From Tubiluchus corallicola (lineage: Eukaryota > Priapulida > Priapulimorpha > Priapulimorphida > Tubiluchidae): DNA of 64,000 bases. The stretch lies in NCBI GenBank assembly GCA_030141605.1, contig JAQGDQ010000041.1, positions 881,165 through 945,164 on the forward strand, read 5' to 3'. This document shows positions 1,335 through 61,200 of the stretch, one piece after another. The notes under the pieces are model-generated. The model was not told where the DNA came from. It saw only the letters and a program-made list of their open reading frames with translations, and searched no databases. Numbering within the stretch: position 1 is the stretch's first letter; the number at the start of each line of letters is the position of its first letter. Position numbers and translations under genes: made by a program.

Positions 1335-2575
1335 TGGTATGCGGAAAGATGGCACGGTTAAAAAACAACACGGTAAAAATGGCATAGGAAAAAATGGCAC
1401 GGTAAAAATGGCACAGGAAAAATGACTCAAATGGAAAAGTAAGTAAAACTGACACAGAAAAAAATGGCACGGTAAAAATGACACAGGAAAAATGGCACAG
1501 GTAAAAATGGCATAAGAAAAAATTGCACAGGTGGAAAATTAGGAAAAAGTGGTACATGACACATGTTATTCTGATGCAGTTGATTTCTATAATAAAACTA
1601 GAAAGTGCTCAGCAAGAAGCAGACCTCTGCCAAAGCTGAACAATCCTAATCTTATTCGTCTGACTTTTTTGATTCAAAACATTTAATACAAAGATAAACA
1701 AGCAAACATGCAAAATGTATGTTTATTGGTATTATTCAGATTAGCAAAAGACTCGCAAAATATTTGTTCAATAAACGGATTTATAGTCAACAATACACGA
1801 ATGTTCCACTTAGTGTTTACCATTAAATTTAGCGGAGTTAATAGACTGACAAATATATGCGTACCAAATCGCCTTATAGGGCTATATGCATTAACAAACA
1901 AAGGCTATAGACAGCGTTACACAGTTTTACAAGTGACATTTTCTCAAAATGTAACCTGGAACTAACTCATAGTTGGGTGTCCTGGTGGATGTAAGTAAAA
2001 AGGAAGTACAAAACACTCCTTCTAAGACGAGATCTTCACCTTCTAAGACAAGACTCTATGAAGTGCTTCACGAACGTTTTTGTACGTGGTGTTCGGTTTT
2101 GTGAAAAAAGATTCCCATTTTGGCATCTATACCCTTCACAAAGTTTCTCTGAAATCTGTTAGATAGTTTTGGGGTAACGGGTAGAAAAAAAAACAAAATA
2201 AATAAACTGTGTTGAAGCATAACTTCCTTGGCAGAGGCAACAATAGCTAAAATAACTATCCCCCACTTAACCCTAATCCTAAGCACACATTTTACTAAGT
2301 GTGCCATTCTTTCCTGTGCCATTTTTACCTCCTTTTCCATTTGTGCCATTTTTACCATGCCATTTTTTCCTGTGCCATTTTTACTTATGTTATTCTTACC
2401 TGTGCCATTTTTACTTACTTTTTCATTAGTGCCATTTTTTCCTGTACCAGTTTTACCTACTTTTTCATTTGTGCCATTTTTGCCGTGCCATTCCTTCCTG
2501 TGCCATTTTTACCTACTTTTCCATTCATGCCATTTTTTCCTGTGCAATTTTTATCCTGTGCAATATAGCATGCCG
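1335..2575. mobile_element. Foldback-like element, copy 1 (tandem-repeat inverted arms)
   Basis: The left arm (about 1335-1555) is an irregular array of short units such as AAAAATGGCACAGG and AAAAAATGGCACGG. The right arm (about 2300-2570) is the same array in inverse orientation (TGTGCCATTTTTACC, TGCCATTTTTTCC, TTACTTTTTCATTTGTG). A unique core of about 750 bases lies between. The same arm-core-arm architecture and a homologous core recur at 58565-59625. Long inverted termini built of tandem subrepeats are the defining structure of Foldback and Galileo-type elements. Both arms stay open in several frames only because the repeat lacks stops, and the resulting Phe/Cys/His-rich peptides are artefacts. 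I see no transposase in the core, so this copy is non-autonomous. The ends and any target duplication are unresolved. Confidence 0.72.
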
Positions 2576-19500: not shown

Positions 19501-21395
19501 AGGCTTTTGGATTATCATGTAAACATGTCTAACAGACAACATTATCATGAATGAAAATCCCAGAACCTTTTCGTAATTAAATTTGTTTAACGCAAATACC
19601 CTGCTCACTATTATCTAGTCGTGATTTTATGCCGTTATTATTTTGTTTTGTTAATAGTGTGGTTATTAAAGCTGCAACAGTCACGCTGCCATGAACCTAT
19701 TTTGTTTGAAAAAATGGACGTTTCTGATTAGTTATCTAAATCTGACAAGGAGGATGAAGCAGCAACCATAAGAAAGCAAAACAAATACTGCATCGCAAAA
19801 CTCTGAGACTAAACTTATTTTGTTGATAATGAATCAAAATTGCAATTATTGTTCTGATTGAAACTGTTAAATGTCTCTATTTGACTTCCAAAGCAGCAAA
19901 CAATCTGGGTAATTTCATCACCACTTTCATTGTTAATAAAGAAACACTCTGTATCAGATGCACTAACAATTCTGAGTATGGCTCGGTAGAATCAACTCCA
20001 CACAGTACTATAATGTAGTGTATATAAGTCTAACAGCTTTAAGTGCTTATTCTTACACCCAACTAGTATAGAGCATTTTTACCGAAATTTTTTTGTTTGG
20101 CCAAAAAATAATCTTCGGTGATACGTTGACAACATGTCGAACTTCATTTCCTGAAAGTCTGAACTGTGTTTGAAGAAATCCAAGTTTTTCATCTACTTCT
20201 TTTGTAGTCCAAGAAAGAATTCCAGGTGCTCGGATAATAATTGCAGCAATGCGTTCCTGGTTAAACTTTTTTGACAAAAAATAATTCACGCGAACCTAAA
20301 CGGGATTAAACATTAAAGCGATTAGTGGCAACTATGAAACTGTTTTACAACTTAATCAGCATAGTCGTAGCAAATCGGTGACAATGATAACATTTGGTGG
20401 TGAGGGCAACAACAGCACTGTCATTAAGGTGATATTTAATGTACCATCTATCTAAGTAAAAAATAGAAACTGCCATTATCTAACAACAACAGTATCAGAC
20501 ATGTTTCTAAATTTTTCATTTAAATCAATATAGAAAAACACATACATTCATAATTTATTGCACTTTTAAAATACTAATGAAAATTAATTACCTAGAAAAA
20601 TGAAAAATTTGACTTTAATTTGTTTTAGATGAGCTTCTACCAGATATGTATAATATCAATGATTTGTCAACCAATCATTTTTCAAGTAGGAAATAAAGAA
20701 ATAAGAAACATTTGTACCTGCAAGTTTTCTAAATCCTCCTGGAATATAAATGGGTTGCCTGTTATCACGCTGCCAATATCATCTCCACTGACACCCAAGT
20801 CAGCCAAAAAGAATACATATGGTTGAATGTCTTTCTTAAAATCCAAACCTATCAATAAATTGGCCGCATGTTTTTTCTCACATTTATGTAAATCCACCCC
20901 AAGTTTCACCAAACTCTGCAGTGATGGTGATTCATTCACATAGGCTGCCAGACTAAATGAGGTTTTCAAAGCTGGACGCACTTCAGATGGATGCAGTTCT
21001 TTTTCTTCAAGAGAAAGCGCAAGCTCGTCTAGGTCGTCAGTTTTATCTGCAGATACCTTCAGACCTTCTAACACTTCTAAGTAAGATATCCTTTCTTCGG
21101 GGCTTTCATTAATGTCACGAAGTAAAACATTAGATTTAAGATGGTTCCTAATTTTATCTTTGCAAAGCACACTGCTTGACTTGACATGGTTCTCACTTTC
21201 AATGTTTTCATCTTCCGCTTTATTGTGACAAAATCGGGAATGTAGTTTGTGCTTGCAGCTTAACTGAGTTTGATAGCACCGATTTGCCTCCAAAGCATGA
21301 CTAAGCAAAACACATCGTGATAAGAAAGCGACGTTAACATTAGAGTGCCTCAATATATGTAAAAAATTCTGTAATGATAGCTTCGACCGAGCCAT
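16558..21395 (-). CDS. MTERF3: Mitochondrial transcription termination factor 3 (four coding exons)
   Basis: Mitochondrial nucleic-acid-binding regulator. In mammals it represses mtDNA transcription initiation and supports mitoribosome biogenesis. Coding exons: 21395-20718, 20295-20083, 18567-18477 and 16835-16558 (stop TGA). They join in frame to 419 residues, very near the human length. The first 60 or so residues are basic and hydroxyl/aliphatic-rich with few acids, as in a mitochondrial presequence. Residues about 150-226 (SLAAYVNESPSLQSLVKLGV, EDLENLQ) match the conserved start of the mTERF domain. Exon 2 carries the repeats IAAIIIRAPGILSW and VVNVSPKIIFWP. Exon 3 gives EMKQILLTCPKVF. 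The end (IGRNQYDPKLPNYISMKSLV ... FNDFLKTL) is the diagnostic MTERF3 C-terminus. The start codon has CCATTG on the plus strand (CAATGG). Promoter unresolved; an 82-bp satellite begins about 255 bases upstream. Confidence 0.95.
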
Positions 21396-21649
21396 TGTTC
21401 CTGCAGCAAAGGAATATCAGAACTGTAGTCCAAGATAAACTAAGAAAGATCTAAAAAATAAATATTAAGTTCACATTAATTACTAAATGATGCTAAACAA
21501 TAAATATAAGTGGTAAACACTAGCTGATGATCAAACACTAGTAAAATTTAAAATTTAACAATAATTATGATCCATTATACGTTTCAAAAAATAATTTCAT
21601 TTTAAAATTCACTTGCAAACTGAGAAAATAAGTTCAAAATCTGGACAAA

Positions 21650-21966
21650 CTTAGTTGAAAATGTACCGTAAGATAGATGCAAAAGTAAGCTCCACTTAGT
21701 CAAAAAGCATTCTTGCCGAAACTCACACAAACTTAGTTGAAAATGTACCGTAAGACAGATGCAAAAGTAAGTTCCAGTTAGTCAAAAAGCATTCTTGCCG
21801 AAACTCACACAAACTTAGTTGAAAATGTACCGTAAGATAGATGCAAAAGTAAGCTCCACTTAGTCAAAAAGCATTCTTGCCGAAACTCACACAAACTTAG
21901 TTGAAAATGTACCGTAAGATAAATGCAAAAGAAAGCTCCACTTAATCAAAGAGCATTCAGAAACTC
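21650..21966. repeat. 82-bp tandem satellite, about 3.9 copies
   Basis: Unit starts (CTTAGTTGAAAATGTACCG) fall at 21650, 21732, 21814 and 21896, an exact 82-base period. The copies differ at only a few positions (for example AGATAGATG versus AGACAGATG), and the fourth is shorter and more diverged at its end (CAAAGAGCATTC). High identity suggests recent expansion. It sits upstream of MTERF3 and has no coding capacity. Confidence 0.93.
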
Positions 21967-26253: not shown

Positions 26254-26335
26254 ATGCCCTTTTTCTGTGTCATTTTTACCTTACCATTTTTACCTGTGAC
26301 ATTTTTACAAGTGGCATTTTTACAGCGCAGGCGTG
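26254..26335 (-). repeat. Fragment of foldback-element arm
   Basis: A short run of the arm unit in the right-arm orientation (GTGTCATTTTTACC, ACCATTTTTACCTGTGAC, GTGGCATTTTTACA). There is no core or opposite arm nearby, so it is a solo arm fragment of the family at 1335 and 58565. Confidence 0.6.
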
Positions 26336-58200: not shown

Positions 58201-61200
58201 TAATTTTTTGTTTTACACACCCTGATGACATGTTAATGTTTAATGAAAACAGTTTCTTGCATGCACTTTCCCCACAACTTACAACTTACAATAGGTGGTG
58301 AGTGCAATGATATTGGCTGATATAGAAGTAAATTTTCTGTTCAACGTATCAGCAACATGAGGTGAATTCCTTCCTACAAAATCATCAGTGATTATTCAGC
58401 AGTTTGCATAAATAAAATGTGTTTTTTGTTTGGTGAAATGTTTTGTATGCCTAGAAAATGTGTAGGTATTCTTAATGATATTCTACAGCTGCAGCCTATA
58501 ATTTAATGTGTGTGATTTGGATACAAATCGACTAATTGGTCGTCTGTATTGCAGTTTTGACATAAAAATTGCACTAGAAAAAAATGGCATGGTAAAAATG
58601 GCACAGGAAAAAATGGCACAGGTAAAATGGCACAGGAAAATATGGCACAAATGGAAAAGTAGATAAAAATAGTGCAGGTAAAAAAGGCACATATGTCATT
58701 TTGATGCAATTGATTTTTATACCAAAACTAGAATGCACTCAGTAGGAAGCAGGCATTTCTTCCAAAGCCGAACAATCCTAAACTTATTCATCTGATTTTT
58801 TATTAAAGAACGTAAGACAAAGATAAACATTGGAAACATACACAATTTTTCATGTATTTGGTATTTTATAGACTAGCAAAATTTTTGTTCATTAAATAGA
58901 ATTATAAGTAATATTTCACATATAATTGTTTATCTGCCTTTGTTTAATTGTTAACTGTGGCGATATATATGCATATTTACATACTAAATTGGCTTACAAG
59001 GTTTATACACAAAGACAAAAGTTATAAACAGTGTTGCAGAGTTTTCCAAGCAAGGATTTCTCAAAATGGAACCTAGAACTAACTCATAGTTGTATGTCCA
59101 GGTGAGATAATAAAAATGAAGTACTAAACACTCCCTCTAAGACCTTCATGAAGTGCTTCACGAACGTTTTTTGTACGTGGTGCTCTGTCAAGTTTCGCGA
59201 AAAAAGAACCGGCGAAAAGATACCCATTTTGGCACCCTATACCCACCCTTCTTCACAAAGTTATGGAAATCTGTTAGATAGTTTTTGTGTAGTAGGCTTA
59301 CTGCCATAAAAGACAAAAACCAGCCAAACAAACAAACTGTGTTGAAGTATAACTTCATTGACAGAGGTAAAAATAACAAAAATAATTATACACCACTGTA
59401 ATCTTAACCCTAAACACATATATTACTAAGTGTGCCATTTTTACCTACTTTTCCATTTGTGCCATTTTTTCCTGTGCCACTTTTACCGTGCCATTTTTCC
59501 TGTACCATTTTCACCTATGCCATTTTACCTACTTTTCCATTTGTGGCATTTTTACCTGTGCCGTTTTTACCTACTTTTCCGTTTGTGTTATTTTATCTGT
59601 GTCATTTTTACCTACATTCAGTCAAATTACATCCATAGAGCAAAATCAGTATACCTGGCACAAACCATTTATCGTAAAATACGGCTTTTTGTTTTAATTG
59701 CCATGGAAATAATCAAATACATTACAGAACTCAAGTATGGGAAAGTAGTGAAAAAAGGGGATTTATGCCTGGCATTGGCATGGCGTGATTTACCCATACC
59801 CAGCGTGATCTACTAAGCAGGCAAATGTTTTTTTCAGGACGGTTGGTCAGGTTTACACATCACAATTGTGCTCTAGATAGTGACTAATAGTCTGCGCAAA
59901 CAATTTTTTCAAAAGGCAGTGTGAGGTCTAACTAACCGATCAGAAAGAAACGCGTCAGTAAGTTTTAACGTTCGGAAGCGTCACGTGATTTATCGCCCGT
60001 CTTATTCCTTTTCTGGAACGTTCTAGAAAAATCGCCGAAATTCAGCATACACGGCTACTCTTTTCCAGCAAAGTCTAGTTTGTGCGCCAGCACGCTAGAA
60101 GCTTCGAGAAAAATTCATAACTGAGCCGGAACATATAAACGCAGCTGATAGGCCGGCTTAAGCAAGTACTAACTGTATTTTGTAAACGAGTGGAGTTCAG
60201 AGTTCTACCGTTCTACTTGAATATCACCGAATTTGCATTACTTTGGAGGATAATTGCTATTTTGAAAGTACATATTCAGTAATTCATACATTTGTAGCAA
60301 AAAGTTGCACCAGCTTTGCGTAACCGAACTAAGATAATGTCTCTGATTGTGCCGTTTGACTTTTATGAATCCTTTTCGCCGTATAATACCCTGGATAGGC
60401 TCGTGCGAGACATGAAAAGATTTGAGAGGATATTGCCTCCTCAAGACTTGGGTTTTGGACGAAGGTACGGTTTGACGACTAGCCAAGGTGTCGACCAGCA
60501 AGGAAGAAAGACTGTGGATATGCATTTCAACATGAAAGAGTACAAACCCGAGGAGATCAAGGTTACAGCTGATGGTAATGTGTTGAAAGTAGACGCAAAG
60601 CACGAAGAGGAGACGAAGAATAGTAAAATTCACAGGGAATGTCATCAAGCGTTCACCTTGCCAGATGACACCGATGTGCAAGCTCTGAAATCATCTTTGG
60701 ACCAAGGCGTGCTATCCATTAGAGTACCTCTTAATACACCTGCTGCTGTTGAAGTGGCAAATAGTACTGCTATTCCAATAGAGTTTGTGAACAAGACAAA
60801 GAGCAAATTGTAAATGATGGTGTTCCATTGTATACTATAAATGGCAACATTGTAAATTATTACGTTTTTGTTATGTCATTCATCAAACAAATTTGTTATA
60901 AATTAATGTAAATGTTAAATGTAGTAATAAATATAGCGACTCTGAGAAGAGTGGATTTTAATCCCGTTATAGCAAAGTACAGCAAGTCTTTGTAGTTGTA
61001 AGTTTTGGTAATGGATTGCTTACAGTCATAAACATGTTATTACTCTGTTTAACGAAAAGCCCAATTAGTTCCACATAAAGAACAGTATTTAAATTTAAAT
61101 TGGATAACTTATTCAGAGATTGCTAAATAACAAAACAATTTTTTAATTGTACGTAATTTATTTTATTACTGTAACCGAAGAAGTATGTTTGTAATTGCTA

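Follow-up and report, generated by a model that had tools for sequence, protein, structure and literature searches.

Known elements with arms of tandem units

DNA transposons whose arms are built of short tandem units are a kind that is already known among the Mutator/foldback elements, because Tm1, Muta1/Muta5 and Tetris all have arms of this type. In the TU elements of sea urchins, the outer domain of the TIR likewise consists of 15-bp units in tandem, and these elements make 8-bp target duplications. In Tm1 from Meloidogyne, as far as the available text of the paper goes, the ends consist of asymmetric 7-bp tip motifs, a GGA and a variable number (1-9) of 13-15 bp tandem units, most of them 14 bp long, followed by a purine-rich 12-bp motif and then one more unit; the two arms differ in unit number (PMC3169594). 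The same text describes mostly 9-bp duplications and mostly non-autonomous copies, and one Tm1 copy in M. incognita that codes for a MULE-like transposase (PMC3169594).

Two MULEs from Aedes aegypti, Muta1 and Muta5, have TIRs that consist of a terminal motif and nine tandem repeats of 12-15 bp, according to the part of their description available to us. They make 8-9 bp duplications and have hundreds of derivatives with a variable repeat number; Muta1 is active in a yeast transposition assay and was labelled a type 2 Foldback element by its authors (PMC5225508). Tetris from Drosophila virilis, in the accessible portion of its report, has long tandem-repeat TIRs, 8-10 bp duplications and no conserved reading frame, was assigned to Mutator by its authors and seeds satellite DNA (PMC4079207).

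Two copies in the window

The window, by which we mean the whole 64-kb stretch of DNA that was analysed, contains two features of this type, at 1336-2564 (copy 1) and 58554-59619 (copy 2). Both follow one plan, in which AAAATGGCACAGG-type units of 14-15 bp are arrayed in the forward direction before a core of about 740 bp and in the reverse direction after it. The individual features are:

1336..1346, plus strand: left terminal motif of copy 1, GGTATGCGGAA (family form GGTGCGCGGTA), from comparison with the family left end
1336..1558, plus strand: left arm of copy 1, forward AAAATGGCACAGG-type units and purine-rich ATGGAAAAGTAGG-type motifs
1559..2299, plus strand: core of copy 1, without a conserved reading frame, from alignment to copy 2 and a consensus of 24 copies
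2300..2564, minus strand: right arm of copy 1, a reversed array with an unrecognisable terminal motif (best 11/18)
26265..26323, minus strand: candidate solo arm relic, four reversed units
58554..58688, plus strand: left arm of copy 2, a forward array with a degenerate left terminal motif, its start set by eye
58689..59430, plus strand: core of copy 2, from alignment to copy 1
59431..59619, minus strand: right arm of copy 2, with an intact terminal ACCTACATTC (59610-59619)

Copy 1 therefore has a defined start at 1336 and a degenerate right end, its array continuing until about 2564, and copy 2 has an exact end at 59619 and a degenerate left end near 58554. Tandem Repeats Finder called the arrays independently in both copies (1345-1532 and 2300-2564; 58563-58649 and 59431-59615), and so recovered the opposed tandem-unit arms with a core between them that the initial annotation had described. 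The homologous core that it had claimed for the second copy is equally clear, with 69.6% identity between 1559-2299 and 58689-59430 (E 5.6e-89). Folded together as DNA, the two arms of copy 1 reach -136 kcal/mol versus a mean of -58 for 40 dinucleotide shuffles (z -17), and those of copy 2 reach -92 versus -37 (z -15).

Unit-like 13-mers with at most three mismatches occur 32 times forward and 37 times reverse in the window versus 12 and 6 times in one base-shuffled window. As such 13-mers are fairly frequent by chance, it is their clustering, and not single matches, that counts as evidence. The solo arm reported earlier near 26254-26335 survives as the four reversed units at 26265-26323; neither a core nor a terminal motif lies beside them, and a solo arm relic is a plausible reading. 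Copies 1 and 2 are very probably old members of a Mutator/foldback family, whose elements are non-autonomous DNA transposons that move by cut and paste.

The window itself looks like animal nuclear DNA. Its G+C content is 30-38% in 2-kb steps, and it contains a tRNA-Arg at 392-464 and an HSP20 frame at 60298-60813. An array with an 82-bp tandem unit (21645-21958; 3.8 copies at 95%) lies past the upper end of what may be an mTERF-like frame on the minus strand (20682-21416), for which the match is weak (E 0.006, below the cut-off).

Size of the family in its own genome

The genome from which the window comes (343.5 Mb in 2344 contigs) was searched with copy 1. This gave 1239 first-look candidates, the best 40 of which were scored, and all 40 matched and were read; because the query contained arms, the sample is biased toward copies like copy 1. 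After L009 and L011-L014 were dropped as duplicates of L010, and copy 2 was added, 36 non-redundant copies were available; row L006, the same place as L015, was likewise left out. The six contigs L009-L014 are 100% identical over 9 kb, and the two contigs L058/L059 are 100% identical over 706 bp; these stretches are assembly duplicates or recent segmental duplications. With their identical scores L009-L014 were considered as young copies for dating, and this was rejected because the whole 9 kb is identical; they were counted once.

Forward units are present to the left of the core in all 36 copies and reversed units to its right in 33 of them, L017, L028 and L040 being the exceptions. Genome-wide and with at most three mismatches, a left-end pattern has 435 matches versus 24 for the reversed control pattern, and a right-end pattern has 1235 versus 6. 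In the 36 copies that were read, 16 of the 17 left-pattern matches are true ends, and the pattern detects 16 of the 36 copies. Only 21 of the 57 right-pattern matches in those copies are true ends, the others being junctions of a unit and a purine-rich motif within the arms. A copy number taken directly from the 1235 right-end matches was thus rejected, since most such matches fall inside arms. Scaling both counts by their true-end shares gives very roughly 800-900 copies, as judged from a biased sample, and a family size of several hundred copies is a safe statement.

Ends and target duplications

When the outermost units are lined up, the family has sharp, fixed ends. On the left the sequence is GGTGCGCGGTAAAAATGGCAC; on the right, in the inward direction, it is GAATGTAGGTAAAAATGGCAC. 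The outer seven bases thus form asymmetric tips, the left one being GGTGCGC and the right one GAATGTA, whereas the GGTAAAAATGGCAC that comes next is common to both ends. The majority base at each of the outer 22 positions is present in 66-100% of 30 copies.

A total of 46 copies were examined for target duplications. Thirty were kept, in which both ends match at least 13 of 18 positions and flanks are available, and 16 were left out as being without two recognisable ends or enough flank. Duplications of 9 bp with 8 or 9 of 9 matches are present in 9 of the 30 copies versus 0 of 870 mis-paired flanks. With one mismatch allowed, the other lengths gave 0/30 (7 bp), 2/30 (8 bp) and 1/30 (10 bp). 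Exact 9-mers flank L005 (AAATTTCTC), L020 (AAAAACATT) and L057 (ATTTTAGAA); by eye, L003, L022, L060, L068 and L049a have a similar 9-mer with an indel or a shift, and these were left uncounted.

Fewer than 8 of 9 matches were found in 21 of the 30 two-ended copies. Copy 2 is among them, with no target duplication (3/9 by script, 2/9 with the left end set by eye), and L016, L008 and others with clear ends have none either (0-1 of 9). Age may explain the copies without a good duplication. Copy 1 is unscorable because its right end is lost. The ends and the 9-bp duplication length are settled for the family, though not for the two copies in the window.

The length of the duplication also bears on which transposase moved these elements. 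Galileo makes 7-bp duplications, and hAT and P elements make 8-bp ones. The long TIRs of Galileo contain tandem repeats that are bound by the THAP domain of its transposase, as stated in the part of its description available to us, and this would favor a foldback of the P superfamily such as Galileo, or else a hAT element, whose TIRs contain tandem repeats. However, the peak here is at 9 bp and not at 7 or 8 bp, and we regard this explanation as very unlikely. The 9-bp duplications are typical of Mutator-type elements (Tm1, Muta1/Muta5 and Tetris) and therefore point to a Mutator-type mover.

Anatomy of the arms

The spacing between units is 15 (200 cases), 14 (150), 27 (51) or 26 (36) bases, and the two longer spacings accompany a purine-rich ATGGAAAAGTAGG motif between units. 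The left arms have 2-86 units and the right arms 0-17, the two numbers within one copy being unrelated (rho 0.01). For example, the left arm of L015 is about 1.45 kb long and has 74 units within three mismatches. The innermost part of the left arm is the purine motif plus exactly one unit, followed by the core, in 27 of the 36 copies. Right arms have the motif followed by one unit in 9/36 copies and by two units in 11/36, and the motif is absent in 9/36. Like those of Mutator/foldback elements, the TIRs of the family are thus composites in which the number of short tandem units varies.

The resemblance to Tm1, within the limits of the text available on that element, includes the order of the parts (tip, GG box, variable units, purine-rich motif, one unit, core) and the 9-bp duplication; one Tm1 copy has the same tip at both ends, as L051 does here. 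The sequences are different. The unit, compared by eye, is CGATTCAGTATCCGC in Tm1 and AAAATGGCACAGGA here, the tips are CGGTTAA / CCTACCC in Tm1 and GGTGCGC / GAATGTA here, and one left arm here (L015) has dozens of units whereas Tm1 has 1-9. Since the unit and tip sequences differ, the present elements form a family of their own within this kind and are not members of Tm1. The earlier statement that the arm unit and core resemble no familiar family needs a qualification, as the type of arm is that of Tm1, Muta1/Muta5 and Tetris.

Muta1 and Muta5 share with the present family the tandem-repeat TIRs, a variable unit number and a similar duplication length, a resemblance judged from the descriptions; unlike here, autonomous copies are known for them, and the available part of their description mentions no asymmetric tips. 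Tetris, as far as its accessible text goes, is similar in its tandem-repeat TIRs, its non-coding nature and its duplication length, but its repeat unit, TIR-220, is far longer than the units here. The sea urchin TU elements likewise have tandem-unit TIRs and differ in their 8-bp duplications. No published record of the family was found by word search or by searching with core or unit letters, repeat databases being outside that scope. The family is therefore new to the literature searched and may already be catalogued in repeat databases. The unit letters matched a single paper, which according to its title is on human CTXN3.

The position of the arrays is relevant to a transposase of the Rehavkus type, a PHD-finger relative of MULEs that could have moved the same element. 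The duplications of Rehavkus are 9 bp long and a minisatellite precedes its 3' TIR; the hosts named in the available text are arthropods or insects and annelids (PMC6446971). Here, however, each end has an array, and it is the arrays that make up the TIRs, rather than preceding a 3' TIR. A Rehavkus-type mover is unlikely.

The core

Cores from 24 of the 36 copies were aligned, leaving out 12 interrupted, partial or doubled copies, and gave a consensus of 861 positions. The cores diverge from it by 7.5-15%, with a median of 19% between copies, and the consensus has stops in all six frames and no coding frame, which marks the copies seen as old and their cores as non-coding. A search with the core only gave 898 candidates, of which 40 were scored. 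Nineteen of these are copies already read with arms, four more adjoin listed left or right ends and the other 17 are without readable flanks.

These data address the question of whether the arms are satellites independent of the core. In the copies read they are not, as left units are present in 36/36, and 23 of the 40 scored core-only matches agree with this. The same evidence weighs against independent minisatellites that flank a repeated core by chance, and against a Helitron or Helentron with tandem repeats, a thought suggested by oyster Helentrons, which carry satellite-like arrays in the portion of the report available (PMC7492417). The arrays are opposed, the ends are fixed and the arm-core junction is kept in the 24 aligned copies. 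In addition, 9-bp duplications are present, and Helitrons are not known to make a target duplication. Either of these explanations is extremely improbable. The foldback-like transposon family proposed in the initial annotation is instead what the aligned cores, the arms that accompany the core in the copies read, the fixed ends and the 9-bp duplications indicate.

Near the right arm (window about 2271-2284) the core consensus contains CCCTAACCCTAA, two telomere-like repeats. The right side of the core may resemble a widespread animal repeat with CCTTGGCGGAGGTAA at its end. Exact patterns of 25 and 23 bases based on this repeat had 0 matches in viral contigs and prokaryote genomes, and a search of published text for core letters returned 12 papers, none of them a repeat paper as judged by titles.

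Transposase class and predicted mechanism

Very probably the family is a Mutator-type, non-autonomous foldback DNA transposon. The class of the transposase, Mutator-type (MULE), is the most likely one given the duplications and the arm plan of related elements. Each arm is a TIR whose 7-bp tip is not the same at the left and right ends; behind the tip come a GGTA box and then 14-15 bp units in varying number. We predict that a MULE-type transposase encoded elsewhere binds the arms and excises the element, and that a staggered cut at insertion leaves the 9-bp duplication. The number of units presumably changes by slippage or unequal exchange. By analogy with Galileo, whose tandem TIR repeats bind its transposase, the AAAATGGCACAGG units are probably repeated transposase binding sites.

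Mutator/foldback elements thereby gain a large, well-delimited family with clear ends and target duplications. Its sets of arms with many unit numbers offer a test of whether tandem units in foldback arms bind the transposase and, through their number, adjust how mobile an element is. In annotation, these opposed minisatellites are to be read as transposon ends and not as satellites.

Search for an autonomous copy

The autonomous copy with a transposase for which the initial annotation had suggested a genome search was not found in the own genome by PF10551 and FLYWCH profile searches or among facing left ends. FLYWCH is the DNA-binding domain of the Muta1 type, according to the available text (PMC5225508). 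It had no match in the own genome, but the search controls gave none either. PF10551 has seven matches at E<=0.001, among them L048 on a bacterial-looking contig, and no ATGGCAC array lies near any of the seven in the flanks read. Flanks longer than about 1.5 kb were covered only on both sides of C390 and of one C1741 copy and on one side of C2289; for C2151 and two further C1741 loci about 1.5 kb per side was covered, less at a contig end.

Several candidates were rejected. C1027 and C4 (L049 and L050) each consist of two ordinary copies in inverted orientation, C162 (L051) is a short copy with a flipped core, C2067 (L083+L085) is an 863-bp copy and C2289 (L056) is a copy of 0.57 kb, with an armless MULE fragment about 5 kb away. 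L057 (1.63 kb) was considered as a gene capture and rejected, its interior being mostly another repeat. Neither of its two peptides has a Pfam family over the cut-off, and the one that was searched matched no solved structure. The separate repeat in L057 is about 910 bp long (L057:328-1240; best 40 of 212 candidates scored).

Other transposases are present in the genome. In L045/L054/L055 (G000:C1741:159300-168400), a frame for a MULE transposase (PF10551, Transposase_mut) is enclosed by inverted ends that contain tandem units of 34 bp, CCTCATTTGCATTAACCAATCAGCAGATGACACC. These units are different from the ATGGCAC-family repeats, and the element shows that MULEs with subterminal tandem repeats exist in this genome. 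Related MULE frames are at C1741:141281, C1741:180405 and C2151:26382. L048 (G000:C1597) has an IS256-type transposase beside a bacterial-looking gene. Weaker PF10551 matches include many 400-residue frames, on contigs C31, C1700, C1719, C1720, C1798, C2237 and others. A bacterium, either a symbiont or a contaminant, seems to have been co-assembled; of that contig set L048 alone was read.

A second array family

The same genome has a second array family, with the unit TTTGGTACTAGGAAA spaced 16 bp (flanks of L033; L049:917-1107). Further examples are at G000:C1810:600964-602495 and C460:503239-504633. A 25-base pattern of this family has 302 matches versus 0 for the control, and matches can be neighbours in one array; in the window the array pattern has no match at up to three mismatches. 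Among 100 TTTGGTACTAGGAAA places listed, a plus run is followed by a minus run within 2.5 kb 11 times, and the reverse order occurs 0 times, so this family forms opposed arrays too. Both units contain TGGYAC and then AGG, with one base between them in the second family, and the two families are apparently related.

It is possible, although we offer the idea tentatively, that the arm units of the foldback families here all derive from a single binding word, which takes the form TGGCACAGG in the first family and TGGTACTAGG in the second, on a Tm1-like plan. If true, an old animal MULE lineage would keep the order of tip, GG box, n units, purine motif, one unit and core under selection. The binding word would shift between families, as expected if the transposase and the word co-evolve, with arm length tuning affinity.

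Structural variants

The interior was sampled behind 20 of the 36 exact left ends. In 16 of the 20, core sequence follows within about 440 bases, limited to its first bases in L068 and L083. The other four are more varied: L072 has a left end and a mostly non-core interior, L073 consists of arms only (289 bp), L074 continues into other sequence after two units and L078 is still within the array at the end of the sequence read. Of the core, L083 retains just the two outer portions, with a different sequence between them. In L051 and L075 the core is flipped relative to the left end, L051 having a left-type tip at both ends, and L049 and L050 consist of two copies each in inverted orientation. 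The flipped cores and the inverted pairs are consistent with arm-to-arm recombination.

Two of these loci have other sequences beside them. A frame follows the truncated foldback end of L074; it matched no Pfam family, but it looks like the tail of a LINE reverse transcriptase. L083+L085 (G000:C2067), which has an 8/9 target duplication, adjoins sequence that encodes a WH1 domain (E 1.6e-12), presumably a Homer-like one.
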